A DNA stretch of 64,000 bases from Comamonadaceae bacterium OS-1 (lineage in GTDB: Bacteria > Pseudomonadota > Gammaproteobacteria > Burkholderiales > Burkholderiaceae_C). Of this stretch, positions 44,597-62,016 are shown piece by piece. Where the stretch lies: NCBI GenBank assembly GCA_027923965.1, contig AP026969.1, positions 2,790,001 to 2,854,000 on the forward strand, read 5' to 3'. The position numbers and the translations under genes are program-made. The notes under the pieces were generated by a model, which searched no databases, had not been told where the DNA came from, and worked only from the letters and a program-made list of their open reading frames with translations. The first letter of the stretch is position 1. Each line of letters begins with the position of its first letter.

Positions 44597-44935
44597 ATGT
44601 CCCTTCCATTTCTAAAAGTGCTGTCGCAATACGATGGCGATACCTACATCAACAACCCGGTAGAAGTCGGCTGGCTGGTCACGCTCAAACAGCAGGGGCA
44701 GGTAGAAGCCGACATTGGCCCGGCCTCCCTCACGCTCTACCCCAGCCGCCCCCCGATGTACGCGATCGTTCGCGGCCTCACGCCCAAGGGCTACGCGGCA
44801 CTGGGCCTGCAGCCCCGGCGGCGCTATGCATTCTGGAGCACGTTGTTTGGCTTCCAGCGCCGGAAGTTTCCCAGGCTGACATTTCGCAGCCAAGAGTCCC
44901 AGGCTACGCTGGTGTGGTGGGGTTGGTGGGCGTAG
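44597..44935 (+). CDS. Protein of unknown function, 112 residues
   Basis: The product has no signal peptide and no membrane helix. It contains KVLSQYDGDTYINNPVEVGW, then DIGPASLTLYPSRPPMYAIV and an aromatic, basic C terminus (RRRYAFWSTLFGFQRRKFPR). I do not recognise a family. ATG 44597 is used; an in-frame TTG at 44537 would add 20 residues. Its last 32 bases overlap the end of the convergent AraC gene. Confidence 0.5.
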   Translation: MSLPFLKVLSQYDGDTYINNPVEVGWLVTLKQQGQVEADIGPASLTLYPSRPPMYAIVRGLTPKGYAALGLQPRRRYAFWSTLFGFQRRKFPRLTFRSQESQATLVWWGWWA

Positions 44936-45854
44936 CGGGCACCGGCCCGGTACCTTCGGCCACCAGCATGGCCTCCAGCGCCTTCACCCGAAAAGCACGC
45001 GGGCTCAGCCCGGTGTGTTTGCGAAAGAAGCGCCCAAAGTAGGTCTCGTCGGCAAAGCCCAGGCTGTCGGCCAGCTGCTGGATGCTGTTGCTGGTGTAGA
45101 CCAGGTCACGCTGCGCCTCGTGCACCAGCCGGGCGTTGATGACATCCAGGCTGGACATGCCCAGCACCTCGCGGCACAGGCGTGAGAGCTGGCCTGGCGT
45201 GATGCCCAGCTGCTCGGCATAGGCGGTGATGGGCAGGTGCTGCTTGAAGCGCTCGTCCACCATGGCTCGGAACTTTTCGATCTGCTGGGTCTTGCGCGGG
45301 TTGCCCAGCGCCCGTGCCGCCTGCTGCACCTGGGCCAGCCGCGCCACCTGCACGCACACGGCCGCCACCAGCGCCATCCCCGCATTCACCTGCCCGGCCG
45401 ACAGTAAATGCGCCTCCCTCTGGATGGACAGAAACAACGGCATCAGCATCTCCGCATGGCCGCTGCTGGCGTCCAGGGTGATGACGGCGGGCTTGCGGAT
45501 CGTGGGCAGCAGCCCTGGCATGGCCACCCCCGCCAGCGACTCCAGAGGCCGCTGTGCCGCCGTGACCACCGGCCCGTCCATATCGTCCGAGAAGCTGAAG
45601 GCATGCACGGTTTGTGCGGGAATCAGCAGCAGGCACGGCGCGCGGACGGCAAACTTGGCATGGTCGACCTGCACCTCGGCCGTGCCCTGCACCAAGTACA
45701 AAAGCTGCAAAAAGGCGTCGTGCTTGTGGGGCCGAATCTCCCAGTTGTAAGGCCGCGAGCGCTGCGGAATCCACTCAAAATCGAACGAGCTTTGCCAGCC
45801 CGGTGCTGCCTGGTCGCCATACAGCGCGTAGTTCGGGATAACCCTGGTTGCCAC
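44904..45854 (-). CDS. AraC-family regulator of the first dehydrogenase module
   Basis: The 316-residue protein has a cupin-like N-terminal sensor (NWEIRPHKHDAFLQLLYLVQ) and a C-terminal AraC domain at about 210-300 (ITAYAEQLGITPGQLSRLCR and ETYFGRFFRKHTGLSPRAFR). This organisation is like PobR, the AraC-type regulator of 4-hydroxybenzoate genes. The start is GTG 45854, since no ATG fits the frame. It is divergent from the SDR-flavoprotein-NIPSNAP operon and is its likely regulator. Confidence 0.86.
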   Translation of the reverse strand: MATRVIPNYALYGDQAAPGWQSSFDFEWIPQRSRPYNWEIRPHKHDAFLQLLYLVQGTAEVQVDHAKFAVRAPCLLLIPAQTVHAFSFSDDMDGPVVTAAQRPLESLAGVAMPGLLPTIRKPAVITLDASSGHAEMLMPLFLSIQREAHLLSAGQVNAGMALVAAVCVQVARLAQVQQAARALGNPRKTQQIEKFRAMVDERFKQHLPITAYAEQLGITPGQLSRLCREVLGMSSLDVINARLVHEAQRDLVYTSNSIQQLADSLGFADETYFGRFFRKHTGLSPRAFRVKALEAMLVAEGTGPVPATPTNPTTPA

Positions 45855-45872
45855 ATCGATGTCCTGAGAACG

Positions 45873-45944
45873 TGTTCAAAGATGCACGAACTGTCTGGGT
45901 TTTCGCGTGAATTGTCAAACCGGTATTTGCCCGCAATTTGAACA
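45873..45944. promoter_or_regulatory. Inverted TGTTCAAA/TTTGAACA pair in the AraC-SDR promoter
   Basis: TGTTCAAA (45873-45880) and TTTGAACA (45937-45944) are exact inverses 56 bases apart in the 120-base divergent promoter. AraC-type regulators can bind such distant half-sites. Binding is inferred only. Confidence 0.4.
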
Positions 45945-45974
45945 ATAGGGTCTTCAAATAACAAGGAGACCCGC

Positions 45975-46787
45975 ATGCCCGACACCCCCCGCCACTGGCT
46001 GCAACTCGACGGCCAGGTCTGTGCCGTGACCGGCGCGGCCAGCGGCATTGGTGCCGCCATCGCCCGCAGCCTGGCCCAGGCCGGAGCCCGGGTGGCCCTG
46101 CTCGACCGCGACCTGGCAGGCTGCGAGCAGATCGCCGCCACCCTCACCGCCCAGGGCGCATCCGCCATGGCCGTGGCCTGTGATGTGGCCTCGGAAGCCA
46201 GCGTGCAGGCCGCCGCCCAGCGGGTGCACGCCGCCTGGGGCGCGGCCTACGCCCTCATCAACAACGCGGGCATGCTGCGCGCCGGAGGACTGGCCGAGGT
46301 GAGCCTGGACGACTGGAACGCGGTACTGGCCGTCAACCTCACCGGCTACCTGCTGTGCGCCCGCGCTTTTGGCGCGCAGATGCGCCAGGCCGGGCGCGGC
46401 AGCCTGGTGCACGTGGCCTCGGTCTCGGGCCTGACCCCACAAACCCAGAGCGGTGCCTACAGCGCCAGCAAGGCCGGGGTGCTGCTGCTGTCGCGCCAGT
46501 TGGCGGTGGAATGGGGACCGCAGGGCGTGCGCAGCAATGCGGTGTGCCCCGGGATGGTTCGCACCGCGCTGTCGGCCAAGTTTTACGAAGAGCCCGGCTT
46601 TGAGGCCAAGCGCGCCGCCGTCACCGCCAGCCGCCGCGTGGGCGAGCCGCAGGACATTGCCGACGTGGCCCTGTTCCTGGCCAGCCCGCGCGCCGCCTAC
46701 GTCAACGCCGCCGAAATTGCGGTGGACGGCGGCATGACTTCCATGCTGATGGACATGGTGCCCCGCCCCGGTTTTAACGCCACCTGA
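45975..46787 (+). CDS. Short-chain dehydrogenase, island copy A
   Basis: The 270-residue SDR has the NAD site TGAASGIGAAIARSLAQAG at 19-37, NNAG, SVSGLTPQTQSGAYSASKAG with the catalytic Ser-Tyr-Lys, and the C-terminal DGGMTSMLMDMVP. GTPRT-like specificity is not visible, so the substrate is unknown. It starts the AraC-controlled operon and the flavoprotein starts 10 bases later. It is similar in layout to the other two SDRs of this island. Confidence 0.87.
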   Translation: MPDTPRHWLQLDGQVCAVTGAASGIGAAIARSLAQAGARVALLDRDLAGCEQIAATLTAQGASAMAVACDVASEASVQAAAQRVHAAWGAAYALINNAGMLRAGGLAEVSLDDWNAVLAVNLTGYLLCARAFGAQMRQAGRGSLVHVASVSGLTPQTQSGAYSASKAGVLLLSRQLAVEWGPQGVRSNAVCPGMVRTALSAKFYEEPGFEAKRAAVTASRRVGEPQDIADVALFLASPRAAYVNAAEIAVDGGMTSMLMDMVPRPGFNAT

Positions 46788-46797
46788 GAACCACACA

Positions 46798-48504
46798 ATG
46801 ACCCCAATCATCGAATGCGACCTCGTCGTCGTCGGCTCCGGCGCTGCCGGCCTGGCCACCGCCATCACCGCCCGCAAACGCGGCCTGGACGTGGTGGTGC
46901 TGGAGAAAGAACCCGTGTTTGGCGGCACCACCGCGCTGTCGGGCGGCGTGCTGTGGATCCCGCTGGGCCCGCATGGCCGCAAGCAGAACCCGGCCGACAC
47001 CATAGCGGCGGTGCGCACCTACCTACAGCAGGAAACCGGCAAGTTTTATGACGCGGCGGCGGTGGAGGCCTTTTTGGCAAACGGCCCCAAGATGGTGGAG
47101 TTCTTCGAGCGCGAAACCGCCGCCCAGTTCATCCCCACCATGTACCCCGACTACCACCCCGACGCGCCCGGCGGCGTGGACCTGGGCCGCTCCATCCTGG
47201 CCGCGCCCTACGACATCCGCGGGCTGGGCAAGGACATGGCGCGCCTCAAGCCCCCGCTGAAAACCATCACCTTCATCGGCATGATGTTCAACTCGTCCAA
47301 CGCCGACCTGAAGCATTTCTTCCAGGCCACCAAGTCGCTGACCTCGTTCGTCTACGTGGCCAAGCGCCTGGTCACGCACCTGAAAGAGCTGGCGCAGTAC
47401 GGGCGCGGCATCAACGTCACCAGCGGCAACGCGCTGGCCGCTCGCCTGGCCCAGTCGGCGCTGGACCTGGGCATTCCCATCCTCACCAGCACCCCGGTGC
47501 GCGAAGTCACCATGCACGATGGCCGCACCACCGGCGTGCTGGCCGACGGCGCAGACGGCCCGTGCCGCATCACCGCCCGCCAGGGCGTGGTGCTGGCCTG
47601 CGGCGGCTTTCCGCAAGACATACAGCGCATCGCCAAGGCCTACCCGCACCTGCAGCGGGGTGGCGAACACCTGTCGCCCACGCCCCTGGGCAATACCGGC
47701 GACGGCGTGGCCATGGCGGAAAAGCTCGGGGCCAACGTGGACATTCGTTTCGAAGACAGCGCCGCCTGGATGCCGGTCTCGCGCGTGCCCTACCGCGACG
47801 GCACGTTCGGCGTGTTCCCGCACCTGCTGGACCGCTACAAGCCCGGCATCATCGGCGTGCTGCGCAACGGCCAGCGCTTCACCAACGAATCCAACTCGTA
47901 CCACGACGTGGGCGCGGCCCTGGTGCGTGCCTGCGCGGGCCAAAAGGAAACCGCCATGTGGCTGGTCTGCGACAAAGCCACCATCGCCAAGTACGGCCTG
48001 GGCTACGCCAAGCCCGCGCCCATGCCGCTGGGCGGCCACCTGCGCAGCGGCTACCTGGTCAAGGGCAACACCCTGGCCGAGCTGGCGGCCAACGCCGGTA
48101 TCGACCCCGCCGGGCTGGAGCAGACCGTGCGCGACTACAACTCTGGAGCCGTCAAAGGCCAGGACCCGGCCTTCCACCGCGGCAGCACCAGCTTCAACCG
48201 CTACCTGGCCGACCCCGAGCACCGGCCCAACCCCTGCGTGGCCCCGGTGCAGGCCGGCCCGTTCTACGCGCTCAAGGTGGTGATGGGCGACCTGGGCACC
48301 TTCGACGGCATCCAGACCAGCGTGGTGGGCGAGGTATTGAAGCGCGACGGCACGGCCATCGACGGCCTGTACGCCGTGGGCAACGACCGCGCCAGCATGA
48401 TGGGCGGCAACTACCCTGGCGCGGGCATCACCCACGGGCCGAACATGACCTTTGGCTTCATCACCGGCAACCACATCGCCGACCGGGCCGGAGCCGCAAA
48501 ATGA
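46798..48504 (+). CDS. FAD-dependent alpha,beta-dehydrogenase, 3-ketosteroid dehydrogenase-like, copy A
   Basis: The 568-residue flavoprotein has the N-terminal FAD site VVVGSGAAGLATAITARKRG (about 10-29) and FGGTTALSGGVLWIP. Its C-terminal FAD segment, YAVGNDRASMMGGNYPGAG, keeps the Tyr-x3-Gly arrangement of the ketosteroid Delta1-dehydrogenase active site. Such enzymes remove hydrogens next to a ring carbonyl. It lies in an operon between an SDR and a NIPSNAP gene. Steroid specificity is not supported by context; no ring-cleavage or cholesterol genes are present. Confidence 0.82.
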   Translation: MTPIIECDLVVVGSGAAGLATAITARKRGLDVVVLEKEPVFGGTTALSGGVLWIPLGPHGRKQNPADTIAAVRTYLQQETGKFYDAAAVEAFLANGPKMVEFFERETAAQFIPTMYPDYHPDAPGGVDLGRSILAAPYDIRGLGKDMARLKPPLKTITFIGMMFNSSNADLKHFFQATKSLTSFVYVAKRLVTHLKELAQYGRGINVTSGNALAARLAQSALDLGIPILTSTPVREVTMHDGRTTGVLADGADGPCRITARQGVVLACGGFPQDIQRIAKAYPHLQRGGEHLSPTPLGNTGDGVAMAEKLGANVDIRFEDSAAWMPVSRVPYRDGTFGVFPHLLDRYKPGIIGVLRNGQRFTNESNSYHDVGAALVRACAGQKETAMWLVCDKATIAKYGLGYAKPAPMPLGGHLRSGYLVKGNTLAELAANAGIDPAGLEQTVRDYNSGAVKGQDPAFHRGSTSFNRYLADPEHRPNPCVAPVQAGPFYALKVVMGDLGTFDGIQTSVVGEVLKRDGTAIDGLYAVGNDRASMMGGNYPGAGITHGPNMTFGFITGNHIADRAGAAK

Positions 48505-48839
48505 ACGGTGCCAAGCCGCTGATCGACCACCGCACCTACACCATTGCGCTGCGCAAGATGCCGGAGTTTCTGGAGGTGTTCAACCGCCTGGCCATGCCCA
48601 TCCTGATGGAGACGCTGGGCCACCCGGTCGGCTTCTACACCAGCCTGGTGGGCCCGCAGAACCAGTTTGTGCACCTCTGGGCCTACGACGACCTGGCCGA
48701 CTACGAGCGCCGCTGCTTCGCCCGCGACACCCACCCCCAGTTTGGCGCCTACCTGGCGGCCTCGGGGCACTTGATCACCGCGCAGGAAACGCGGCTGGTG
48801 AAGGCAGTGCAGATGGCAGGTGTTAACCACACTATCTAA
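48501..48839 (+). CDS. NIPSNAP-family protein, small copy
   Basis: The 112-residue product has one NIPSNAP (dimeric alpha/beta-barrel) domain: DHRTYTIALRKMPEFLEVFN, LGHPVGFYTSLVGPQNQFVH and LWAYDDLADYERRC. Its start overlaps the flavoprotein stop (ATGA). NIPSNAP proteins are often found with catabolic flavoenzymes, possibly binding or isomerising unstable products. Its last codons and stop fall inside a hairpin repeat, which may have replaced the original C terminus. Confidence 0.8.
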   Translation: MNGAKPLIDHRTYTIALRKMPEFLEVFNRLAMPILMETLGHPVGFYTSLVGPQNQFVHLWAYDDLADYERRCFARDTHPQFGAYLAASGHLITAQETRLVKAVQMAGVNHTI

Positions 48840-48886
48840 GTGATAGCTGCTCACGCAGATGGAATAAGCGTGAGCAGCCTAAAACA
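48829..48886 (+). repeat. Dispersed hairpin repeat, copy 9, carrying a gene stop
   Basis: CACTATCTAAGTGATAGCTG, CTCACGCAGATGGAATAAGC and GTGAGCAGCC. The stop codon of the NIPSNAP gene (TAA at 48837-48839) lies in the first part of the repeat. It is between convergent genes. Confidence 0.87.
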
Positions 48887-48896
48887 CTTAAAAACT

Positions 48897-49712
48897 CTAC
48901 GCGGCTTCCAACAGCCTGCGCGATGCCGCCAGCGCCTGGCGCGCCCACTCTACATCGCCCACTTGCGCGGCCCGCACCTGGTGCGGCACTTCCACGCTGA
49001 CGGGCACGTCGGCGGGCAGCGCGGCAAAGATGCTGGCCGGGTCAATGCCGCCCTCGCCCGGTAGCAGGCGCTCGCAGCGGGCGGTGTGGACCATCTGCTC
49101 CACCGTGAAGTTTTTGCCCGCAGGCGCGTCGCAGATCTGCGCGTAGTGCAGCAGCCCGGGCGGCAAGGCGCGCAGGTCGTCCAGCGTGGTGCTGGAGCGG
49201 GCCACGTGCAGGGCATCCACCAAGATGCCCGCATTGGCCGGGTGGCCTGCGGCCTGCACGGTGCGCAGGGCCGCCTGGGCATCGGACACCGCCGTCCAGG
49301 GCATGAATTCCAGGTCGGCCGTCATGCCGTAGGGCTGCATGGACGCGCACAGGCGGGCGTAGTTGTCGGCCAGGCGTGCCAAGTCGGTGTCGTCCCCGGC
49401 CACCAGCACGGCCCGGGCCCGCAGCGCAGCGGCGGCTTCGAACATCGGCAGGTAAGCCTGCAGATCGAAGGCGGCATCGATACGGACGATTTCGATGTCG
49501 AACACGCCCACCCCCGTATCGCGCTGCACCGCCAGGGTTTCGCGCAGGATGGCCGCATCGCCCAGCAGCGGCTGGTACGGCGCGCCGGGGGCGTTGGGGC
49601 GCAAGCGCAGGCCCACGTGGCCGTAGCCCAGCTGGGCGGCGGCTGTCAGCATCTGCGGCGGGGTCAGGTTGGCGGCGGTGAGGTAGGCGAGGGAGTAGCT
49701 GCGCATGGCCAT
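48897..49712 (-). CDS. TIM-barrel sugar isomerase/dehydratase-like protein
   Basis: The 271-residue protein has the xylose-isomerase-like TIM-barrel pattern: AAQLGYGHVGLRLRPNAPGA, ADLEFMPWTAVSDAQAALR and ILVDALHVARSSTTLDDL. Metal ligands may be Glu in LEFMPW, Asp in LVDALH and Asp in QICDAP. Related proteins include IolE and 3-dehydroshikimate dehydratases. With a shikimate-dehydrogenase-like gene in the same island, a dehydratase or isomerase acting on a cyclic polyol acid is plausible. It lies four bases after the NIPSNAP gene. Confidence 0.78.
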   Translation of the reverse strand: MAMRSYSLAYLTAANLTPPQMLTAAAQLGYGHVGLRLRPNAPGAPYQPLLGDAAILRETLAVQRDTGVGVFDIEIVRIDAAFDLQAYLPMFEAAAALRARAVLVAGDDTDLARLADNYARLCASMQPYGMTADLEFMPWTAVSDAQAALRTVQAAGHPANAGILVDALHVARSSTTLDDLRALPPGLLHYAQICDAPAGKNFTVEQMVHTARCERLLPGEGGIDPASIFAALPADVPVSVEVPHQVRAAQVGDVEWARQALAASRRLLEAA

Positions 49713-49715
49713 TCC

Positions 49716-50351
49716 TTATTTCAAAGGCGATACCGCGGTGGGCAAGGCGATGGTGGAGAACATATTGGTCGTCAGGTTTGCAGGCCCGCCCTTGGGTGGC
49801 CAGATGCCTTGGGCCACCGCGTCGGCGCGGGCTTTGCTGCGTGCGTCCAGCGTGGGGTAGGCCCAGATGTTGGTGAAGCGCAAGGGCCCGTCCAACGCCA
49901 CCATGGCCACCACGCAGGGCGACAGCACTTCGCGCGGCGGCACATACTGTTCCCACAAATCAATGGTGGCCTGCACGCCGCCAACCTTGATGCCGTAGGT
50001 GCGGATCTCGTAGACCGGGCCGGTGATGCCCGACTCGGCCGAAGGGCGCACCGGTTTCATCCACGGGAAGCCCTGGTAGCTGTGCTGCTCCAGGCTTTGG
50101 AAGATGCTGCCGCAGCCGAACGGGTCGGCGCTTTTTTGGGTGCGGTCGCGCTCTTTTTGCAGCGTGGCCAGGTCGGCAAAGCCGCGCAAGACAATCATTT
50201 GGTTGAGCTGGCCGATGTCGGTAAACCAGCAGCCCAGCAGTTCGCCGTTGGCGTCCTCTGCGCTGGTGGCGCTGGTAAAGGCCTGCACATTGGTGGCGGC
50301 CTGGCCTGCGGTGCCGAAAGGCAGGGTCATGGTGGCGAGTTCGTAGTACAT
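49716..50351 (-). CDS. NIPSNAP-family protein, two-domain copy
   Basis: The 211-residue protein has two NIPSNAP-like domains, one from about 1-95 (YELATMTLPFG and LQKERDRTQKSADPFGC) and one from about 112-205 (VYEIRTYGIKVGGVQATIDL). The second has the FTNIWAYPTLDARSKARADA segment. It follows the flavoprotein on the minus strand, separated by 72 bases containing a hairpin repeat. A carrier or isomerase role is possible but unproven. Confidence 0.8.
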   Translation of the reverse strand: MYYELATMTLPFGTAGQAATNVQAFTSATSAEDANGELLGCWFTDIGQLNQMIVLRGFADLATLQKERDRTQKSADPFGCGSIFQSLEQHSYQGFPWMKPVRPSAESGITGPVYEIRTYGIKVGGVQATIDLWEQYVPPREVLSPCVVAMVALDGPLRFTNIWAYPTLDARSKARADAVAQGIWPPKGGPANLTTNMFSTIALPTAVSPLK

Positions 50352-50364
50352 GGTGAAAGTCCTT

Positions 50365-50426
50365 GGTTGCTATGGAATAAAGAGCTGCTTACGCTCATGG
50401 CATAAGCGCTGGAGGCCGATTTTTTA
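50365..50426 (+). repeat. Dispersed hairpin repeat, copy 10
   Basis: GGTTGCTATGGAATAAAGAG, CTGCTTACGCTCATGGCATA and AGCGCTGGAGGCCGATTTTTTA. The tail supplies the stop codon (50424-50426) of the minus-strand flavoprotein gene. It lies inside an operon, between flavoprotein and NIPSNAP genes. Confidence 0.85.
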
Positions 50427-52133
50427 TAAATCAACACCCGCTGCGTGGTGGGCGGCATGATGGGCAGCGATATAGCCAAAAGTCATCGCCGGGCCCAGCG
50501 TGATGCCGCCGCTGGGGTAGGTGCCGCCCATCACGCTGTGCATGTCGTTGCCGCCCGCGTACAGGCCGGGGATGGGTTGGCTTTGCGCGTCCAGCACCTG
50601 GGCACTGGCGTTGGCGCGCAGGCCAGCGAAGGTGCCCAGGCTGCCGGGGACCACCTTCACGGCGTAGAACGGGCCGTGGGTGAGCGGGGCCATGCAGGGG
50701 TTGGGATATCCGCTGGCCGCATCGCCCTGCACTTTGTTGTAGGGGGTGTCGCCTTTGGCGAAGTCGGCATCCACACCGGCCAGCGCCTGCGGGTTGTAGC
50801 GCGCCACCGTGGCCTGCAAGCCTGCTGCATCGATGCCGCAGGCCTGGGCCAAATCAGCGAGGGTGGTGCCGCGCTGCAGGTAACCGTTGCGCAGCATCGC
50901 GCCCATGGGTAGGGGGGCGGGTTTTACCGCGCCCAGGCCGTAGTGGCGGATGAAAGCGTGGTCGCACACCAGCCAGGCCTGGACGGGCAATCCAGCGGGG
51001 GTGGCGGGCGTGGCGGCCAGCATGCCGCTGACAAAGTCGTAATAAGAGTCGGCCTCGTTGGTGAAGCGCTGGCCTGCGGCGGTCACGGCGATCAGCCCCG
51101 GCTTGGCGCGCTCGACCAGGTGCGGGAAATGCGCCACCGATCCATCGGCACGCGGCACCAGCGACACCGGGGCCAGTGCAGCGGCCTGCACCGCATCGCG
51201 CGCCACCTGGCCGCCCACGGCCTCGCCCAGGCGCAGGCCGTCGCCGGTATTGCCGCGCGAGGCTGCAGACCAATGCTCTTGCCCGGTGGGTGCGTGCGGC
51301 AGCAGCTCTTTTTTGCGCGCTACGTCATGCGGAAAGCCACCGCAGGCCAGTACCACGCCGCAACGGGCGCGGACTTCCACACCGTTCACCACCGCGCCCA
51401 CCACCCTGCCCTGCTCGGTCAACAAACGCTGCGCCGGGCTGTGGGTGCGGATCTCCACACCTTTGGCAAAGGCCGATGCCGCCAGCCCCGCCACCAGCGC
51501 ATTGCCGTTCACCAGGCGCATGCCACGCCGGTGGAGCAGCAGGTCGGCGAAGTGGAGCAGCACCAATTTCGTGACGTACCACAGCGAGGCGGGCTTGCGC
51601 AGGGCGTTGAAGAAGTGCCGCAGCTCGGCCCCGGATGCAATGCCCATGCCCCACAGGGTGGTCTCTTTCAGGGGCGGTTTGAGCCGCTCCATCTGGGCCC
51701 CCAGGCGGCGGCCATCAAACGGCGCGGCGCAGATCGAGCGCCCACCCCGCGCCGCGTGCGGGTTGCGGCCATGGAAGTCGGGCACGCCGTTGCCGTCGAT
51801 GAACTGCAGGGCGGTCTGCGTGCGAAAGAAGTCCACCATGCGCGGCCCGGCTTCCAGAAAGGCCTGCACCCGCGCTGCATCAAACTGCGCGCCCAGCTCC
51901 TGCCGCAGGTAGGCAGTGGGCGTGGCGATGTCCTCGGTAATGCCTGCCTCGGTGGCCAGTGGGTTGCGCGGCAGCCACATCCAGCCGCCCGACCAGGCGG
52001 TGGTACCGCCGTACTGCGGTTCTTTTTCGACCACCAGCACCTTGAGGCCCAAGTGGGCGGCGGTGACGGCGGCAGATAGCCCCCCGGCACCGGAGCCGAT
52101 GACCAACAGGTCGGTGTGTTCGGTGGCAGCCAT
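50424..52133 (-). CDS. FAD-dependent alpha,beta-dehydrogenase, 3-ketosteroid dehydrogenase-like, copy B
   Basis: The 569-residue protein repeats the layout of copy A. The FAD site is VIGSGAGGLSAAVTAAHLG (about 11-29), then YGGTTAWSGGWMWLP. The C-terminal segment YAGGNDMHSVMGGTYPSGG again keeps Tyr-x3-Gly. It begins two bases after the IclR gene and is probably co-transcribed with it. It precedes the NIPSNAP and TIM-barrel genes. The stop codon lies inside a hairpin repeat. Confidence 0.82.
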   Translation of the reverse strand: MAATEHTDLLVIGSGAGGLSAAVTAAHLGLKVLVVEKEPQYGGTTAWSGGWMWLPRNPLATEAGITEDIATPTAYLRQELGAQFDAARVQAFLEAGPRMVDFFRTQTALQFIDGNGVPDFHGRNPHAARGGRSICAAPFDGRRLGAQMERLKPPLKETTLWGMGIASGAELRHFFNALRKPASLWYVTKLVLLHFADLLLHRRGMRLVNGNALVAGLAASAFAKGVEIRTHSPAQRLLTEQGRVVGAVVNGVEVRARCGVVLACGGFPHDVARKKELLPHAPTGQEHWSAASRGNTGDGLRLGEAVGGQVARDAVQAAALAPVSLVPRADGSVAHFPHLVERAKPGLIAVTAAGQRFTNEADSYYDFVSGMLAATPATPAGLPVQAWLVCDHAFIRHYGLGAVKPAPLPMGAMLRNGYLQRGTTLADLAQACGIDAAGLQATVARYNPQALAGVDADFAKGDTPYNKVQGDAASGYPNPCMAPLTHGPFYAVKVVPGSLGTFAGLRANASAQVLDAQSQPIPGLYAGGNDMHSVMGGTYPSGGITLGPAMTFGYIAAHHAAHHAAGVDL

Positions 52134-52135
52134 GG

Positions 52136-52954
52136 TCAAGCGGAATAAATTTTTCGGAGACCCGCCGCTGCATTGGCGCGGGGCTGGTTGAAGAACGGCG
52201 AGGCCCCGCTGGCAGCAGCCAGCTGCGCCGCCAGCGACACCAGATCGCCGCCCAGGGCCTGCATGCGCTCCAGCGTGAAGCGGGCCGACGGCCCGGCGAT
52301 GCTGATGGTGCCCAGGGCCTGCCCGGCCAGGCACACCGGCGCGGCCATGGCGTTCAGGCCGGGGGTGTAGGTTTCTTGCGTGAGGCTGTAGCCGCGCTCG
52401 CGCGTGGCCTGCACCTGCGCCATCACCTCCTGCAGGGTTTTGGGGGCGTTGGGGCCAAACTCTTCCACCGGGCCCACGCCCTGCTGGGCGACCAGGGCCA
52501 GGGCCTCGTCGTCGGCCAGGGTGGACAACCAGGCCAGGCCGGAGGACGAGCAGGAAATGCGCGCATCGCTGCCCATGTCGGGGTCGTAGCGCAGGCCCTG
52601 GCGGGCCCCCTGGGCACGGGCCACCCAGGTCAGGCGGTGGCCATCCACCACGGCCAGGCGCACCAGTTCGCCGGAGATTTCGGCCAGCCGGTCGAGCAGC
52701 GGCTGGGCAATGTCGACGATGCCGGTGTTGCTCAAAAAGCTCAGGCCCATGGACACCAGCTTGGTGGTGAGCAGGTAGTCGCCGTGGTCACGCGTCTGGC
52801 GCACATAACCGCAGCGGGCCAGGTCCACCAGCAGACGGTGCACGGCGCTGCGCGGGATGTCGAGCCGGTCGGCAATGGCGGCCAGCTCCAGGCCGCCGCC
52901 GTGCTGGGACAGCAGCTCCAGGATGGCAAGGGTTCGTTCTAAAACACCGTTCAT
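52136..52954 (-). CDS. IclR-family regulator of the dehydrogenation island
   Basis: The 272-residue protein has the IclR winged helix at about 5-60 (LERTLAILELLSQHGGGLEL and DIPRSAVHRLLVDLARCGYV) and the effector domain from 80 on. It is divergent from the shikimate-dehydrogenase-like gene and directly upstream of flavoprotein B. Two palindromes lie in its divergent promoter. It probably controls both directions. Confidence 0.88.
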   Translation of the reverse strand: MNGVLERTLAILELLSQHGGGLELAAIADRLDIPRSAVHRLLVDLARCGYVRQTRDHGDYLLTTKLVSMGLSFLSNTGIVDIAQPLLDRLAEISGELVRLAVVDGHRLTWVARAQGARQGLRYDPDMGSDARISCSSSGLAWLSTLADDEALALVAQQGVGPVEEFGPNAPKTLQEVMAQVQATRERGYSLTQETYTPGLNAMAAPVCLAGQALGTISIAGPSARFTLERMQALGGDLVSLAAQLAAASGASPFFNQPRANAAAGLRKIYSA

Positions 52955-52999
52955 GGCTTGCTCGTTTGTGTGTGGCGATGCCGCATCATAGCAAAAATA

Positions 53000-53871: not shown

Positions 53872-53872
53872 G

Positions 53873-55588: not shown

Positions 55589-55735
55589 GGAAACCCCCTG
55601 TCGGGCCATGCAGGAAATGTCCTGTTCATGGCCCGATTCGTTGGTGAATTAAAGCCCCCCGCAAAACAAAATTCAGCTGCTTTTGACAGAGGGCGGCAGA
55701 CACCGCTCGTTCTAAAACCGTGTGAGGAGACAAAC

Positions 55736-55831: not shown

Positions 55832-55834
55832 GGC

Positions 55835-56626
55835 ATGGCCACCACCCCTTTGGTCGCCGTGGTCACCGGTGCCGCCGACGGCATCGGCTGGGCCACGGCC
55901 CAAAAACTGGCCGCCAACGGCTACCGAATTGCACTGTTGGACCTGCGCGCACAGGCCGCCGTTGACCGCGCCGCCGAGCTGGGCCCGGACCATCTGGGCC
56001 TGGGCTGCGACGTGACCCAGCCCGACAGCGTGGACGCGGCCATCGCCTCGGCCTGCGCGCTGGGCCGCATCGCGGTGCTGGTCAACAACGCGGGCATCGC
56101 CGACCAGACCGGCCCCACGGTGGCGCAAGACGTGGCGGCGTTTGACCGGGTGCTGGACGTGCACCTGCGCGGCACCTTTCTGGTCAGCCAGGCGGTGGCC
56201 AAAGCCATGCTGCAGGGCAGCGGCCACCGCGCCATCGTCAACCTGGGCTCCATCGCCAGCAGCACCGGCCTGCCCGCCCGCAATGCCTACAGCGCGGCCA
56301 AGGCCGGGGTGGTTGGCATGACCCGCGCCATGGCCAGCGAGTGGGCCCGCGACGGCGTCCGCGTCAACGCTGTAGCCCCCGGCTATGTGCGCACCGCGCT
56401 GGTGGCCGAACTGGGCCGCCAGGGGGCCATCGACCTGGCAGGCATTGCCCACCGCACGCCGCTGGGCCGCATGGCCGAGCCGCATGAGATTGCCGAGGCC
56501 ATCGCCTTTCTGGCCTCGCCCCAGGCCAGCTATATCACCGGCGTGGTGCTGCCGGTGGACGGCGGCTGGACGGCCTTTGGTGCGCCGGAGTCGGCCCTAC
56601 CGGCGCTATCGGCGCTGGCGGCCTGA
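55835..56626 (+). CDS. Short-chain dehydrogenase, island copy B
   Basis: The 263-residue SDR has the NAD site TGAADGIGWATAQKLAANG (about 11-29), NNAGIADQTG, the catalytic set SIASSTGLPARNAYSAAKAG, and the end ITGVVLPVDGGW. It lies after flavoprotein C and 30 bases before the ABC permease genes. It probably oxidises a ring hydroxyl of the transported compound. Confidence 0.87.
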   Translation: MATTPLVAVVTGAADGIGWATAQKLAANGYRIALLDLRAQAAVDRAAELGPDHLGLGCDVTQPDSVDAAIASACALGRIAVLVNNAGIADQTGPTVAQDVAAFDRVLDVHLRGTFLVSQAVAKAMLQGSGHRAIVNLGSIASSTGLPARNAYSAAKAGVVGMTRAMASEWARDGVRVNAVAPGYVRTALVAELGRQGAIDLAGIAHRTPLGRMAEPHEIAEAIAFLASPQASYITGVVLPVDGGWTAFGAPESALPALSALAA

Positions 56627-56656
56627 ACCACTTTTAAAACTGGAGGAGACACAAAA

Positions 56657-57508
56657 ATGTTGGCTATCAACCTTTTCAACGGCCTGGTCTACGGCGCATT
56701 GCTGATCGTGATGTGTTCGGGGCTGGCGCTGATCTACGGGCTGCGCCGGGTGGTGAACTTCGCCCACGGTTCGCTCTACATGCTGGGGGCCTACCTGGGC
56801 TATTCCATCGCCAGCCACAGCAACTTCTGGGTGGCGCTGGTGGCGGCCCCGGCGGTGATGGCGCTGCTGGGCGTGCTGCTGGACCGCTACGGCTTTCGCC
56901 TGCTGCAAGACCGCGACCCGCTCAGCGTGGTGCTGGTGACCTTCGGCCTGCTGCTGATCATCGAAGACTTTGTGCAAAGCGTGTGGGGCAAGAGCAACCT
57001 GTCGGTGGCCGCCCCCGAGGCGCTGAACACCTCGGTCGACCTGCTGGGCACGCCGGTACCCGCCTACCGCCTGGCGGTGATTGCCGTGGGCGCGCTGGTG
57101 GCGCTGGGCCTGAGCCTGTGGCTGCGCTATTCCAAGGTGGGCCTGTTTGTGCGGGCCGCCAGCACCGACCCCACCACCACCGCCATGCAGGGGGTGAACA
57201 CCGACGTGCTCAGCGCCGGGGTGGTGGGCCTGGGCACCGCGCTGGCCGGGCTGGCCGGGGTGGTGGCCGCGCCGTTTCTGTCGCTGTCGCCGTCCATGAG
57301 CAGCGACGTGATCATCGATTCCTTCGTGGTGGTGGTGGTCGGCGGTCTGGGCTCGCTGGTGGGGGCCTTTGTGGCGGCCATGGTGCTGGGCATGGTGCAG
57401 GCCCTGGGTGCCGTGTACCTGCCGGACCTGTCGGCGGTGCTGCCCTTCGTGATCATGGTCGCCGTACTGGTCTGGAAGCCCGCGGGCTTTGCCGGCAGCC
57501 GTACCTGA
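56657..57508 (+). CDS. Branched-chain-type ABC permease, LivH-like
   Basis: The 283-residue protein has about eight membrane segments and the LivH pattern, GLALIYGLRRVVNFAHGSL near residue 23 and the end VVGGLGSLVGAFVAAMVLG. It forms a permease pair with the next gene. GGAGGAGACAC precedes the ATG. The set of five ABC genes has the standard order permease-permease-ATPase-ATPase-binding protein. Confidence 0.9.
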   Translation: MLAINLFNGLVYGALLIVMCSGLALIYGLRRVVNFAHGSLYMLGAYLGYSIASHSNFWVALVAAPAVMALLGVLLDRYGFRLLQDRDPLSVVLVTFGLLLIIEDFVQSVWGKSNLSVAAPEALNTSVDLLGTPVPAYRLAVIAVGALVALGLSLWLRYSKVGLFVRAASTDPTTTAMQGVNTDVLSAGVVGLGTALAGLAGVVAAPFLSLSPSMSSDVIIDSFVVVVVGGLGSLVGAFVAAMVLGMVQALGAVYLPDLSAVLPFVIMVAVLVWKPAGFAGSRT

Positions 57509-57522
57509 AAGAGGAAATCAAC

Positions 57523-58503
57523 ATGTCTATCCAACGTATCACTTTATCCACCGCAGGCGCATTGGCGGTGGGGGCCGTGGTGGCGGCTACCGTCACCTCG
57601 GGCACGGTCTTGTCGCTGCTGACGCAGGCCATCATTTACGCGGTGTTTGCCAGCGGCGTGGGCCTGCTGCTGCGGCAAAACGGCATGGTCAGCTTTGGCC
57701 ACGCGCTGTTCTTTGGCGCGGCAGGCTACGGCGTGGGCCTCTTGCTGCAAATGCAGGCCATGCCCGCCGAGGCGGCCATGCTCGTCACCCTGCTGGTCCT
57801 GACCGCCGTGGCCTTTGTGATGGGGCTGGTGATTGTGCGGGTGCCTGGCGTGGCCTTTGGCATGCTGACGCTGGCAGTGGGGCAGATGTTCTACCTCACG
57901 GCCTCGCGCTCCCGCGGCCTGACCGGCGGTGCCGACGGCATGAACATCGAGTGGCCCGCCACGCTGTTTGGCCTGCCGATGTCGCAGCTGCTGAAGTCCT
58001 CGCACCTGTTTTTGCTGTGCTGGACCGTGCTGGTGTTGGTACTCCTGGCCCTGGCCCTGCTGCTACGCAGCCGCTTTGGCAGCATCACCGAGGCGGTACG
58101 CGACAACGAGGAGCGCGCCCGTTTCATCGGCATCCGCACCCTGCTGCCGCGGGCGGCCATCTACGCGCTGTCGGCTCTGGTGACGGGCGTGGCCGGTCTG
58201 CTATCGGCGCTGAACACCGGCTTTGTGTCGCCGGAAAACCTGCACTGGAGCCTGTCGGGCGTGGCGCTGATGATGGTGGTAGTGGGCGGCTACAAGGCGC
58301 TGTGGGGCCCGGCGCTGGGTGCCGTCGTGTACTTCCTGGCCAAGGACATTCTGGGCGACTACGCCAACCACTGGATGGCCATCTTCGGCGTGGCGCTGAT
58401 CACCGTGATCGTGTTCTCGCCCACCGGCATCGCCGGGGCCCTGGGCAGATTGGCCCGGGGCAAACCATCCACCCCCGCCCTGCGCACCGCGCCCGGGCAC
58501 TGA
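57523..58503 (+). CDS. Branched-chain-type ABC permease, LivM-like
   Basis: The 326-residue protein has about nine membrane segments with the LivM motifs LLLRQNGMVSFGHALFFGAA, RSRGLTGGADGMN and VRDNEERARFIGI. It follows the LivH-like gene by 14 bases with a GAGGAAATCAAC ribosome site. A LivH/LivM pair imports hydrophobic amino acids or, in many betaproteobacteria, aromatic acids. Confidence 0.9.
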   Translation: MSIQRITLSTAGALAVGAVVAATVTSGTVLSLLTQAIIYAVFASGVGLLLRQNGMVSFGHALFFGAAGYGVGLLLQMQAMPAEAAMLVTLLVLTAVAFVMGLVIVRVPGVAFGMLTLAVGQMFYLTASRSRGLTGGADGMNIEWPATLFGLPMSQLLKSSHLFLLCWTVLVLVLLALALLLRSRFGSITEAVRDNEERARFIGIRTLLPRAAIYALSALVTGVAGLLSALNTGFVSPENLHWSLSGVALMMVVVGGYKALWGPALGAVVYFLAKDILGDYANHWMAIFGVALITVIVFSPTGIAGALGRLARGKPSTPALRTAPGH

Positions 58504-58515
58504 GAGGAACACCCC

Positions 58516-59235
58516 ATGAGCAACTTTGTACTGGAAGCCACCGACGTGGCCATCCACTATGGCGGCGTGAAGGCCGTGGACGGTGTCTCGCTGACGCTGG
58601 AACGCGGCCAGATCCGCGGACTGATCGGGCCCAACGGCGCGGGCAAATCCACCGTGATCGATGCCATCACCGGCCGCACCCGCCTGACCCGTGGCACGGT
58701 GCACCTGGCCGGGCAGGACGTGACCGCCCTGGGGGCCACCCAGCGCCGTATGCGCGGGCTGTCGCGCAGCTTTCAGCGCACCAGCATCTTTGGCCAGATG
58801 GCGGTGCGCCAGCAGGTGGAGCTGGCCTCGCACAAGATGGGCGTGGCCGACTCCGCGGCCGATGCCGACGCGGTGCTGCAGGAGCTGGACCTGATGCCGC
58901 TGGCCAACGCCACGGCCGAAGACCTGGGCTACGGCCAGCAGCGCCGCCTGGACCTGGCCCTGGCCCTGGTGGGCCGCCCGCAGGTGCTGCTGCTGGACGA
59001 GCCCATGGCCGGGCTGTCGGTGCAGGAATCGCACGACCTGGCCAGGCACCTGAAGGCGCTGACCTCGCGCTGGGACGTGTCGGTGCTGCTGGTCGAACAC
59101 GACATGGACGTGGTCTTCGGTATCTCCGATGTGGTCACGGTTTTTGAACTCGGCCGGGTGATCGCCAGCGGCGCACCGGCCAGCGTGCGCGCCGACCCGC
59201 GCGTGCGCGAAGCCTATTTGGGGAGCACGGCATGA
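58516..59235 (+). CDS. Branched-chain-type ABC ATPase, LivG-like
   Basis: The 239-residue protein has Walker A GPNGAGKST at 38-46, the Q-loop/RRMRGLSRSFQRTSIF region, signature region LGYGQQRRLDLALAL and Walker B VLLLDEPMAGLSVQES. The C-terminal segment carries the LivG tail with VIASGAPASVRADPRVREAY. It overlaps the LivF-like gene by four bases (ATGA). Confidence 0.92.
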   Translation: MSNFVLEATDVAIHYGGVKAVDGVSLTLERGQIRGLIGPNGAGKSTVIDAITGRTRLTRGTVHLAGQDVTALGATQRRMRGLSRSFQRTSIFGQMAVRQQVELASHKMGVADSAADADAVLQELDLMPLANATAEDLGYGQQRRLDLALALVGRPQVLLLDEPMAGLSVQESHDLARHLKALTSRWDVSVLLVEHDMDVVFGISDVVTVFELGRVIASGAPASVRADPRVREAYLGSTA

Positions 59236-59936
59236 GCGCACTACTGCAACTGGAAAAAATCAACGCCTTTTACGGCTCGGCCCACATCCTGCACGGCCTG
59301 AGCCTGGCGGTGCAGCCCGGCGAGCGGGTGGCGCTGATTGGCCGCAACGGCGTGGGCAAAACCACAGTGGTCAACACCGTGCTGGGCCTGGCCGCGTTGC
59401 GCGGCGGCAGCGTGCGCGTGGGCAGCAAAACCCTGCCGCGCCCGCGCCCCTACATGGCGGCCCAGCAGGGCGTGGTGGTGGTGCCGCAGGGGCGGCGCAT
59501 CGTGGCCAATTTAACCGTGGAAGAAAACCTGCAACTGGGTGCCGCCGTGGGCCGCAAAGGCCCATGGAACGTGCCCGAGATCTACAAGCTCTTCCCCATC
59601 CTGCAGGAACGTGCCCACACCCCGGGCACCGCCTTGTCGGGCGGCCAGCAGCAGATGCTGGCCGTGGGCCGGGCGCTGATGGCCAACCCCGCGCTGATTC
59701 TGCTCGACGAGCCCACCGAAGGCCTGGCCCCGGTGATCGTGGACCAGCTGGCGGTGATCTTCAACCGCGTGGCCGACCAGGGCACGGCACTGCTGCTGAT
59801 CGAACAAAACATGAGCCTGGTGGTGCGCGTGGCCGAGCGCTACTGCGCCATGGCCAAGGGCGCGGTGGTGGCCGAGGGCCCGGTGGAGAACAGCAAGGCC
59901 TGCCTGCAGGACCTGGAAGCCCACGTGATGGTTTGA
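59232..59936 (+). CDS. Branched-chain-type ABC ATPase, LivF-like
   Basis: The 234-residue protein has Walker A GRNGVGKTT at 37-45, signature ALSGGQQQMLAVGRALMA and Walker B LILLDEPTEGLAPVI, all typical of LivF. It forms a heterodimer with the LivG-like subunit. The binding protein gene follows after 68 bases. Confidence 0.92.
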   Translation: MSALLQLEKINAFYGSAHILHGLSLAVQPGERVALIGRNGVGKTTVVNTVLGLAALRGGSVRVGSKTLPRPRPYMAAQQGVVVVPQGRRIVANLTVEENLQLGAAVGRKGPWNVPEIYKLFPILQERAHTPGTALSGGQQQMLAVGRALMANPALILLDEPTEGLAPVIVDQLAVIFNRVADQGTALLLIEQNMSLVVRVAERYCAMAKGAVVAEGPVENSKACLQDLEAHVMV

Positions 59937-60004
59937 GGCGCGCATCCCCATTTTTTCATCGGCAACCGGGCCGCTTCCGGCAATTTGATTCAGGAGACAC
60001 AACC

Positions 60005-61186
60005 ATGTTCACACCCAACCGCATCCTCGCCGCCCTGTCACTCACTGCCGCCCTGCCCCTGGCCGCACTGGCCCAGGGCAAGGAGCCCGTCAAGATCGGC
60101 CTGGTGTCGTCCAAGTCGGGCGTGTTTGCCCAGCAGGGCGAAGAAGTCATGCGCGCCGTGCAGTTCGCCATCGACGAGGCCAACGCCAAAGGCGGGGTGG
60201 ATGGCCGCAAGGTCGAGGTGCAAACCGCAGACGACGAAGGCACGCCCGACGCAGGCCGCCGTGTGGCCGAAAAGCTGGCGCGCGACGGCTACAACCTGCT
60301 GATCGGCGCGATTCCCTCGTCCATCTCGTTGGCGCTGGCGCAGAACCTGGAGCGCTGGGACGCGGCCTACTTTGCCGTGGCCAGCAAGTCCGACAAACTC
60401 ACCGGCGACACCTGCCGCCCGCGCAGCTTCCGCACCAACCACTCCGACGCGATGGATATGGCCATGATCGGCCAGTGGGCCAAGGGCTTCAAGGAAAAGT
60501 CGTTTGCCGTGCTGGCCGCCGACTACGTGTGGGGCCGCGACTCGGGCGAGTCGTTCAAGAAAGCCGTGGAAGCCCAGGGCAAGACCGTGCCGCTGAGCCT
60601 GTACGTGCCGATGGGCACCAAAGACTTCTCGCCCTACATCGCCCAGCTCAAGGCCTCCAATGTGGAAGCCATCTGGGTGGCAGAAACCGGCCGCGACGCC
60701 ATTGCGTTTGCCAAGCAGGCGCAGGAATTTGGCCTGATCCCGGCGAAGAAGCTGATCGGCCACTCGCTGATCCTGAACTTCATGATCGAAGGCTCGGGCG
60801 ACGCGCTCAAAGACACCATTGGCACCATCCCCTATGCCGTGGACATCGACACACCGCGCAACAAGGCCTTTGTGACCGCCTGGAAAGCCAAGTTCAACCG
60901 CCTGCCGTCCGACAACGAAGGTGGTGCCTACAACGGCGCGCAGGTGATTTTTGAAGGCGTGAAGAAGTCCGGCAGCGTCAAGCCCGCCGATGTCAGCAAG
61001 GCCCTGCGCGGTGCCCAGATCGACTCCATCTACGGTGACGTGACCATGCGCGCGCAAGACAACCAACTGGTGCTGCCCAACTACGTGGGCCGCGCCAAGG
61101 TGGCCGACGGCGTGCTGCGCGCGGTGATCGAGCAGCGCTTCGACCCGTCGCTGACGCCCGCACCCTCGCCCCTGTGCAAGATGTGA
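60005..61186 (+). CDS. Periplasmic ligand-binding protein, LivJ/HmgB-like
   Basis: The 393-residue protein has a Sec signal peptide (cleaved after ALA at 23) and a type I periplasmic fold: PVKIGLVSSKSGVFAQQGEE, EANAKGGVDGRKVEVQTADD and the C-terminal YVGRAKVADGVLRAVIEQ. Homologues bind branched amino acids or aromatic acids. It completes the ABC set. Its stop overlaps the start of the next SDR gene by one base. The ligand is probably the substrate of the island enzymes. Confidence 0.88.
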   Translation: MFTPNRILAALSLTAALPLAALAQGKEPVKIGLVSSKSGVFAQQGEEVMRAVQFAIDEANAKGGVDGRKVEVQTADDEGTPDAGRRVAEKLARDGYNLLIGAIPSSISLALAQNLERWDAAYFAVASKSDKLTGDTCRPRSFRTNHSDAMDMAMIGQWAKGFKEKSFAVLAADYVWGRDSGESFKKAVEAQGKTVPLSLYVPMGTKDFSPYIAQLKASNVEAIWVAETGRDAIAFAKQAQEFGLIPAKKLIGHSLILNFMIEGSGDALKDTIGTIPYAVDIDTPRNKAFVTAWKAKFNRLPSDNEGGAYNGAQVIFEGVKKSGSVKPADVSKALRGAQIDSIYGDVTMRAQDNQLVLPNYVGRAKVADGVLRAVIEQRFDPSLTPAPSPLCKM

Positions 61187-62016
61187 TGGCAGCGGTGGCG
61201 CAACCTGCATCCATGCACGCCCTGGTCACCGGCGCTACCGGTGGCATCGGCCAGGGCATCTGCTTTGCCCTGATCGCCCAGGCGCAGAAGGACGGTGTCT
61301 CCATCCACATCAGCGCGGCTGCCTCGCAGCCGGGTGAGCGGCTGGATGCGCTGGTGCAGGCCTTGCGCGCTGCGGGGGCCAGCGCCCGCGGCGTGGCGGG
61401 CGACATCACCGAGCCCGCGGATTGCGCCAGCCTGGTGGCGCAGGCCCAGGCCGAGGGCGGTGACCTGACGGCCCTGGTCTGCAATGCCGGTGCCTCCGGC
61501 CCGGGCCGCCTGGCCGACCTGCCAGTGGCGCAGTGGGACCGCAGCTTCAACCTCAACACCCGCTCGGCCTGGCTGCTGGCGCAGGCCGCCTACCCGGCCC
61601 TGGCACGCACGCGCGGCAGCATCACCGCGATTGCGTCCATGTCGGGGCTGACACCGCACCCGGGCTACGGCGCGTATTCGGCGGCCAAGGCGGCCCTGGT
61701 GATGCTGTGCCGCCAGCTGGCGCAGGAATGGGCGGCAGACGGCATCCGCGTCAACACGGTCTGCCCCGGCATGGTCCGCACGCCGCTGACCGAAGCCGTC
61801 TACCAGGACGCGGCCACGCTGCAGCAACGCCAGGCCCTGGTGCCCCTGGGCCGCATCGGCCAGGCCGAAGACGTGGGCGCGGCGGTGGCGTTTTTCACCA
61901 GCGCAGCCGCCTCGTACGTTACCGGCCAGAACCTGCTGGTGGACGGCGGCATTTCGGACCACATGCTGGCCCTGGTTCCAGGGCGGCCCGGCAAGCCGCC
62001 GGTGGGCAGTAGCTGA
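61186..62016 (+). CDS. Short-chain dehydrogenase, island copy C
   Basis: The 276-residue SDR has the NAD site ALVTGATGGIGQGICF (about 12-27), CNAGASGPG in place of NNAG, the catalytic SMSGLTPHPGYGAYSAAKAA, and VDGGISDHMLALVPG at the end. It overlaps the binding-protein stop codon and closes the operon. The SGLTP segment and the C-terminal DGGxxxxMLxxVP pattern are shared with SDR copy A at 45975, so the two may act on related substrates. Confidence 0.87.
   Translation: MAAVAQPASMHALVTGATGGIGQGICFALIAQAQKDGVSIHISAAASQPGERLDALVQALRAAGASARGVAGDITEPADCASLVAQAQAEGGDLTALVCNAGASGPGRLADLPVAQWDRSFNLNTRSAWLLAQAAYPALARTRGSITAIASMSGLTPHPGYGAYSAAKAALVMLCRQLAQEWAADGIRVNTVCPGMVRTPLTEAVYQDAATLQQRQALVPLGRIGQAEDVGAAVAFFTSAAASYVTGQNLLVDGGISDHMLALVPGRPGKPPVGSS

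Follow-up and report, generated by a model that had tools for sequence, protein, structure and literature searches.

The window analyzed here, a 64,000-nucleotide stretch of the genome of Comamonadaceae bacterium OS-1 held on a single 5.12 Mb contig, contains between positions 44904 and 62016 an island of genes whose content we confirmed one by one, at or very near the coordinates first given in a sequence-only reading of this DNA: three KstD-like flavoproteins (FAD1 to FAD3), three SDRs, two NIPSNAP genes, a PF01261 TIM barrel (hereafter TIM), a shikimate-dehydrogenase-like protein (SDHL) and an importer of the LivHMGF type, all present as that reading had listed them (Table 1). Its picture of one island made of three equal modules did not survive, as relatives separate a core, in which [IclR-FAD2-NIPSNAP2-TIM] is divergent from [SDHL-FAD3], from an accessory set, and the single-island view was rejected on these grounds. 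We propose, with reasonable though far from full confidence, that the core is a catabolic module which oxidatively aromatizes hydroaromatic acids related to quinate and shikimate. The best named protein matches come from Rhodoferax/Albidiferax and other Comamonadaceae.

The division into core and accessory genes emerges from a NIPSNAP2 search of named genome contigs that returned 116 loci, of which the best 80 were used; these represent close relatives only, with titles mostly of Comamonadaceae genera or unplaced Burkholderiales and a few others. Genes in the loci were called with our own hexamer script and no standard gene finder, and tblastn matches below 30% identity or below 60 bits were discarded before counting. 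Among the 56 loci with more than 6.5 kb upstream of NIPSNAP2, core order is retained almost throughout (SDHL 56/56, FAD2 56/56, FAD3 55/56, IclR 55/56), and TIM lies downstream in 62 of the 66 loci with enough flank on that side; FAD3 identity drops to 52% in the relatives' loci, yet the order is kept, a conservation beyond chance. Accessory genes are found less often close to the core, with FAD1 in 6 of the 80 loci (5 at at least 60% identity), a LivH of the island's type in 5 and SDR3 in 3, and importers of different types surround the core from locus to locus. Twenty SDHL-anchored loci, hand-picked and not random (16 from the 29 other SDHL-positive family genomes described below plus the 4 others from the phylum sample, some of them ending at contig ends), carry FAD3 in 19, FAD2 in 18, NIPSNAP2 in 17 and TIM in 16; this set overlaps the NIPSNAP2-anchored one in at least two contigs, L139 and L140 being, by their length, the same contigs as L044 and L034.

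Table 1. Genes of the island, with positions in the window and the sequence features on which their assignment is based (scores in bits)
Gene or product	Set	Position	Strand	Basis
AraC-type regulator	accessory	44904..45854	-	PF12833 and AraC_binding; nearest NCBIfam model HpaA 174.6, below the 274.65 cut-off
SDR1	accessory	45975..46787	+	PF13561; TGAASGIG, NNAG, YSASK; ChcB2 178.8 (cut-off 350)
FAD1, KstD-like flavoprotein	accessory	46798..48504	+	PF00890; PRK06134 721.6 (cut-off 747); ChcC2 551.6 (cut-off 900)
NIPSNAP1	accessory	48501..48839	+	PF07978 73.6; ATGA overlap with FAD1 stop
TIM, PF01261 barrel, dehydroshikimate-dehydratase-like	core	48897..49712	-	PF01261, metal-site residues, fold
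NIPSNAP2, two NIPSNAP domains	core	49716..50351	-	PF07978 87.5
FAD2, KstD-like flavoprotein	core	50424..52133	-	FAD_binding_2; PRK06134 875.6, above the 747 cut-off
IclR-family regulator	core	52136..52954	-	kept in 55/56 testable loci
SDHL, shikimate-dehydrogenase-like	core	53077..53871	+	PF08501; best PDB match 4k28
FAD3, KstD-like flavoprotein	core	53873..55588	+	PRK12843 877.2, above the 758 cut-off
SDR2	accessory	55835..56626	+	PF13561; ChcB2 215 (cut-off 350)
LivH-like permease		56657..57508	+	PF02653 117.7
LivM-like permease		57523..58503	+	PF02653 104.2
LivG-like ATPase		58516..59235	+	PF00005 and PF12399
LivF-like ATPase		59232..59936	+	PF00005
Periplasmic binding protein (Peripla_BP_6)		60005..61186	+	PF13458 263.7; best PDB match 4ey3, E 8e-32
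SDR3	accessory	61174..62016	+	PF13561 197.6; TGATGGIG, YSAAK

Across 299 genomes drawn evenly from the window's family, its own included, SDHL occurs in 30, NIPSNAP2 in 29 and NIPSNAP1 in 26; SDHL and NIPSNAP2 are found together in 28, leaving two genomes with SDHL only and one with NIPSNAP2 only. NIPSNAP1 is accompanied by SDHL in 22 of its 26 genomes, and in G704, G606, G547 and G650 the two lie on different contigs or more than 100 kb apart, a co-occurrence despite distance that speaks for a functional tie rather than simple genetic linkage. SDHL is further found at at least 56% identity in 5 of the 150 genomes of an order sample, and with a match at E 1e-60 in 5 of the 398 genomes of a phylum sample, the window's own being one of these five; among distant relatives the core set recurs in differing gene orders. 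The order-sample stretches came from 11 hand-picked genomes (G002, G038, G046, G058, G075, G098, G102, G119, G137, G138 and G148), to which three stretches of the window's own genome were added. Contigs of metagenome-assembled genomes titled Singulisphaera, Chitinophaga and Chitinophagaceae (L041, L044 and L074) also hold core genes, with NIPSNAP2 at 80-86% identity; the title of L044 looks wrong, since a contig of equal length belongs to G578, a genome placed in the window's family and in one genus with G763, and wrong naming or binning may also account for the remaining two.

The kinship of the three flavoproteins and the Tyr-x3-Gly motif near their C termini, both pointed out from the letters alone, are borne out: FAD1 and FAD2 share 48% identity, FAD3 is 36-39% identical to either, and the motif reads YPGAG, YPSGG and YTAPG, respectively. 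The closest solved structure to FAD1 is the 3-oxosteroid 1-dehydrogenase 7p18, whose active-site residues we take to be Y118, Y363, Y536 and G540, their roles being likewise assumed. In residue alignments that excluded flavoproteins below 42% and TIM barrels below 40% identity, as well as lengths outside 0.75-1.35 times the reference, the corresponding Tyr119, Tyr368, Tyr539 and Gly543 of FAD1 are kept in 8/8 sequences and the same four residues of FAD3 in 79-81 of 81, while FAD2 keeps three of the four in 62/62 and carries Phe instead of Tyr at the first position in 59/62. The predicted ketone-desaturation residues are thus retained in full by FAD1 and FAD3 and in three of four positions by FAD2. 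FAD1-3 share the FAD fold and the Tyr/Tyr/Gly keto-desaturation residues with the 3-ketosteroid Delta1-dehydrogenases 7p18 and 4c3x, but they score below the KstD cut-offs (for FAD1, FAD2 and FAD3, respectively, 449.7, 449.6 and 430.6 bits against 789 on PRK12844, and 407, 408.2 and 381.9 against 788 on PRK07843), and the island is devoid of steroid genes. Models of the small-ring desaturases ChcC2 (551.6, 483.7 and 416.2 against 900) and ChcC1 (311.6, 328 and 302 against 1000) also place all three under their cut-offs, as does ChcB2 for SDR1 and SDR2, SDR3 having been scanned against Pfam only; the SDRs were recognized by Pfam matches together with TGxxxGIG and YxxxK motifs. The FAD2 gene most likely starts at 52133, the alternative start at 52334 adding 67 residues whose codons would run into the IclR gene upstream, read in a different frame.

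TIM carries what appears to be the metal site of a QuiC-type dehydratase. Glu135, Asp166, His169, Gln192 and Arg215 are present in 92/92 aligned TIM sequences and Glu241 in 90/92 (2 gaps), and the same metal-site letters stand in 10-11 of 11 QuiC rows, where we take a Glu, an Asp, a Gln and a Glu to be the metal ligands and the His an active-site residue; these positions are presumably in part common to other PF01261 enzymes. Profile comparison of TIM with QuiC (hhalign) gave 99.1%, and the best PDB match of the TIM profile is Lmo2234 of Listeria (2g0w, E 7.5e-23), with IolI, 5hmq and 3u0h also matched. The predicted structure (predicted local distance difference test, pLDDT, 96.5) is closest in fold to IolI, Lmo2234 and 5hmq, sugar epimerases following slightly behind. 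The entry 5hmq, titled as a fusion of a TIM barrel and hydroxyphenylpyruvate dioxygenase, is presumably QuiC1, and Lmo2234, the best match by profile and the second-best by fold, yet only 19% identical, we assume to sit in a Listeria operon for shikimate utilization; a literature search for Lmo2234 listed no paper that names it. Together, residues, profiles and predicted fold support, short of proof, a putative QuiC-like dehydratase role. In one relative two tandem TIM genes, 49% and 48% identical to that of the window, lie beside FAD2 (L133:14357-16005), and a second dehydratase is possible there.

SDHL keeps Lys74 and Asp111 in 88/88 aligned sequences, which we take to be the catalytic pair of shikimate/quinate dehydrogenases, and in 88/88 it has Val in place of the first Ser, presumably carboxylate-binding in those enzymes; on the AroE model TIGR00507 it scores 132.8 against a cut-off of 200.2 bits. 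A Phe near the catalytic Asp, considered as a sign of a new substrate, was dropped because related AroE copies also have it. As for the NIPSNAP proteins, both lie well above the PF07978 gathering score of 22.3 bits; nothing else in the 5.12 Mb genome matches that family, and 14 control genomes gave no match at all. Because the NIPSNAP1 start overlaps the FAD1 stop, translation of the two genes is probably coupled. The predicted fold of NIPSNAP2 (pLDDT 92.7) comes nearest to an uncharacterized protein of marine origin, to putative monooxygenases and to coproheme-decarboxylase folds, with identities of 8-13% in most of the 50 rows listed, and no function follows. In L137 (G670:C2) an in-frame TAG splits NIPSNAP2, which may reflect gene decay or a fault in the assembly.

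The link to hydroaromatic catabolism comes from QuiC, here a single-domain relative of dehydroshikimate dehydratase, searched in the family sample with the copy of the window's own genome as query. It is present in 98 of the 299 genomes, among them 26 of the 30 with SDHL as opposed to 72 of the 269 without (one-sided Fisher test, 1.7e-10), and by genus in 16/19 as opposed to 41/122 (3.8e-5). QuiC lies within 26 kb of SDHL, a limit chosen after the distances were seen, in 9 of the 26 genomes, where 0.34 would be expected from genome sizes; these nine fall in five genera and are not nine independent events. In the window's genome the two are 1.35 Mb apart. Around the core itself, QuiC-type genes are found in 9 of the 80 named loci (7 at at least 60% identity) and LigB-type genes in 12 (10 at at least 60%).

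L125, which by its kinship label "same phylum" and by that label only belongs to another class, has SDHL-TIM-FAD2-FAD3-NIPSNAP2 in one run and after it IclR, pcaF (above its equivalog cut-off) and the B and A subunits of a 3-oxoacid CoA-transferase (both above subfamily cut-offs). In L111 a single strand carries FAD2-SDHL-FAD3, an AroE-like gene, another NIPSNAP, a second-type LivFGMHK importer and QuiC, with AroQ, which exceeds its cut-offs, and another gene of the shikimate-dehydrogenase-like kind adjoining on the opposite strand. In L133 one 20 kb stretch brings the core together with SDR2, NIPSNAP1, a portion of FAD1 and QuiC. The core shares with the known quinate/shikimate-to-protocatechuate route (AroQ, shikimate dehydrogenase, QuiC) an enzyme of the shikimate dehydrogenase family and a PF01261 dehydratase-like protein, and in several loci is physically linked to it; it differs in its KstD-like desaturases and NIPSNAP, neither of which that route is known to need, and in that TIM is only a distant relative of QuiC.

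In light of these results we propose that saturated or partly saturated hydroxy-cyclohexane carboxylates would first be imported, after which SDHL or an accessory SDR would oxidize a ring hydroxyl to a ketone and FAD2, FAD3 or FAD1 would introduce ring double bonds beside it. Where a beta-hydroxyl is present, TIM would remove water from the beta-hydroxy ketone much as dehydroshikimate dehydratase does, and tautomerization, perhaps aided by NIPSNAP2, would yield protocatechuate or a hydroxybenzoate, which this organism would break down through the protocatechuate 4,5-cleavage genes found at another place in its genome. The Liv importer and the SDR1-FAD1-NIPSNAP1, SDR2 and SDR3 genes would feed into the core a related substrate that differs in stereochemistry or position. 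Dihydroshikimate and 3,4-dihydroxycyclohexanecarboxylate are our best guesses for the substrate: to reach protocatechuate, the former would need no more than SDHL, TIM and a single desaturase, and the dihydroxycyclohexanecarboxylate no more than SDHL with two desaturases. Fermenting bacteria make dihydroshikimate and dihydroxycyclohexanecarboxylates from shikimate and quinate. The proposal draws on gene content, conservation, residues, co-occurrence and neighborhoods; the chemistry of each step, the identity of the substrate and what NIPSNAP does are inferred from these.

A bolder version of the proposal is possible, and we put it forward tentatively as the less likely outcome: a pathway not described before, using neither CoA nor an oxygenase, would turn reduced hydroaromatic acids back into an aromatic one, protocatechuate. 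SDHL, a pair of KstD-like desaturases and a dehydratase resembling QuiC would carry it out, and each desaturase would work with a NIPSNAP protein acting as a new kind of enzyme, most likely an isomerase or tautomerase of dienones. The open-access literature searched held no description of the gene set (subscription papers may hold one), and a term look-up in PMC4213383 gave no match; it is apparently a conserved and so far unstudied gene set of a freshwater-type bacterium. If the proposal is true, Burkholderiales would possess an added route returning saturated shikimate-like acids to aromatic catabolism, with a reach indicated by SDHL in 30/299 family genomes and by the lake or pond bacterial names of many of the named loci. 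It would also offer candidate enzymes for desaturating the rings of small ketones, and bacterial NIPSNAP proteins, whose function is obscure, would gain a pathway in which their activity is assayable.

Several observations weigh against the main proposal. TIM reaches only 20.7 bits on the QuiC model NF042435, whose cut-off is 1200, and by fold it resembles other PF01261 enzymes almost as closely; the two single-domain QuiC proteins scanned themselves score 144.3 and 188.5 on that model, which spans 635 positions, a two-domain length. FAD2 has Phe at the first active-site position. Co-occurrence is partly phylogenetic. At the cut-off, 4 of the 30 SDHL genomes have no QuiC, and 72 of the 98 QuiC genomes have no SDHL. 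In its visible 15 kb, L111, the best operon case, carries none of TIM, NIPSNAP2 and IclR; FAD2 and FAD3 are missing from L110, whose SDHL and TIM are accompanied by a NIPSNAP; L127 has SDHL without the rest of the core, and L128 is devoid of FAD2 and NIPSNAP2. Furthermore, the substrate assignment is a guess, and an acyl-CoA dehydrogenase (38/66) and a CoA-transferase (37/66) have no role in the scheme, although more than half of the relatives carry them beside the core, near TIM and on the NIPSNAP2 strand, downstream of that gene (e.g. L079:11685-12848). The earlier statement that steroid, ring-cleavage and beta-oxidation genes are absent holds for the island inventory and not for the relatives' flanks, in which these two genes and LigB-type ones (12/80) occur.

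That pair is also the starting point for a different reading, in which the core would break down an acid, alicyclic or ring-opened, that is bound to CoA, the CoA-transferase and acyl-CoA dehydrogenase are true members and the flavoproteins act before or after them. Cyclohexane-1-carbonyl-CoA dehydrogenase is indeed among the models matched by that dehydrogenase, at 237.6 bits against a cut-off of 650, the one acyl-CoA dehydrogenase and one CoA-transferase scanned falling below every listed cut-off. However, the pair is missing from this island and from 28 of the 66 testable loci, it reaches at least 70% identity in only 4 of the 20 SDHL-anchored loci, and the best match to the dehydrogenase in the window's genome is no close copy (36% identical); we regard this as quite unlikely. 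A route of the chc type, in which cyclohexanecarboxylate or naphthenic acids undergo hydroxylation, oxidation to an oxo acid and two desaturations to a hydroxybenzoate, is unlikely too. The nearest named small-ring models are the Chc desaturases and SDRs (FAD1 on ChcC2, SDR2 on ChcB2), and the introduction of PMC9795900 describes for the chc pathway of Sinomonas cyclohexanicum (Yamamoto 2021) the order of hydroxylation, alcohol oxidation and two desaturases that aromatize cyclohexanecarboxylate to 4-hydroxybenzoate. Judged by the NCBIfam models ChcB2, ChcC1 and ChcC2, its flavoproteins and SDRs are homologous to those of the island. However, no P450 is present among the island genes at 44904-62016 (the rest of the genome was not searched for one), the Chc scores are far under their cut-offs, and SDHL, the QuiC-like TIM and the NIPSNAPs lie outside the scheme as described there.

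A steroid or terpenoid ring-modification island, which the KstD family resemblance and 7p18 as the closest solved structure to FAD1 might suggest, was rejected on model scores and gene context and is extremely improbable: FAD1-3 fall under the KstD cut-offs, the island has no steroid genes, and the association is instead with QuiC, AroQ, shikimate-dehydrogenase-like and pca/lig-type genes. Breakdown of a cyclitol or C-glycoside, by a Gfo/Idh/MocA oxidase and PF01261 beta-elimination with the flavoproteins aromatizing the ring product, appears highly unlikely as well; a Gfo/Idh/MocA-type gene is found in 38 of the 80 loci (27 of them below 50% identity to the reference) and TIM is also near IolI, but the island contains neither that gene nor a glycosidase, and SDHL and the QuiC association indicate hydroaromatic acids. 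The proposed oxidative aromatization of hydroaromatic acids by the core agrees with the earlier idea of a stepwise oxidation and desaturation of an alicyclic or hydroaromatic substrate toward an aromatic product, which is supported by the desaturase residues, the dehydratase-like TIM, the co-occurrence with QuiC and the quinate/shikimate and pca-type neighbors; as a whole, the earlier interpretation is partly supported.

As for the fate of the product, the ben/3-oxoadipate genes at 1-9275 of the window are a doubtful sink. With their upstream neighbors they form a benzoate set, in which BenA is above its cut-off, a catechol 1,2-dioxygenase-like protein is just below (355.7 against 392 bits), and BenBCD, transporters, an IclR regulator, two CoA-transferase subunits and a thiolase were recognized by eye; such a benzoate/catechol set is not the expected sink for protocatechuate and would fit a benzoate or catechol product. 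No protocatechuate 3,4-dioxygenase was seen, the sole other PF00775 match in the genome being weak and partial (32.7 bits, cut-off 27.3), whereas both the alpha and beta subunits of protocatechuate 4,5-dioxygenase are above their cut-offs at C1:1.62 Mb (L149), flanked by a LigI-like hydrolase and a LigC-like oxidoreductase, neither at cut-off. Names such as Liv2, Tct, Dct, LigI, LigC, CaiB and VanA were given to genes in the loci by eye or by similarity to one representative, and the LigI-, LigC- and VanA-like proteins scanned reached no model cut-off.

Two further regions of the same genome bear on hydroaromatic compounds. At C1:1494000-1512000 (L116) QuiC lies with a second Liv-type importer; QuiC and a hydroxyphenylpyruvate-dioxygenase-like domain are two adjacent genes there, unlike the fused model, and a VanA/VanB-like pair, recognized by eye and the first of the two without an NCBIfam match at 1e-30, is nearby. 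At C1:2591000-2609000 (L117), apparently a second hydroaromatic cluster of the window's genome, AroQ, a second shikimate-dehydrogenase-like gene, a DctQMP (DctP-type) importer and an AroE-like gene above its cut-off are found together, with an open reading frame (ORF) that by eye resembles a transposase directly upstream of the latter.

Within the window, the binding protein at 60005-61186 has PDB matches too broad for a ligand to be read from them. Two ORFs recognized by eye, a short one of flagellar-rod type and one resembling a response regulator, begin in 62061-64000 directly beyond the island and mark where the catabolic genes stop. In L114, L115, L118 and L122, shikimate-dehydrogenase-like relatives (38-41% identical to the second such representative) stand beside GMC-type oxidoreductases identified by eye, one gene away in L114, and this context is a different, unstudied neighborhood of the shikimate dehydrogenase subfamily.

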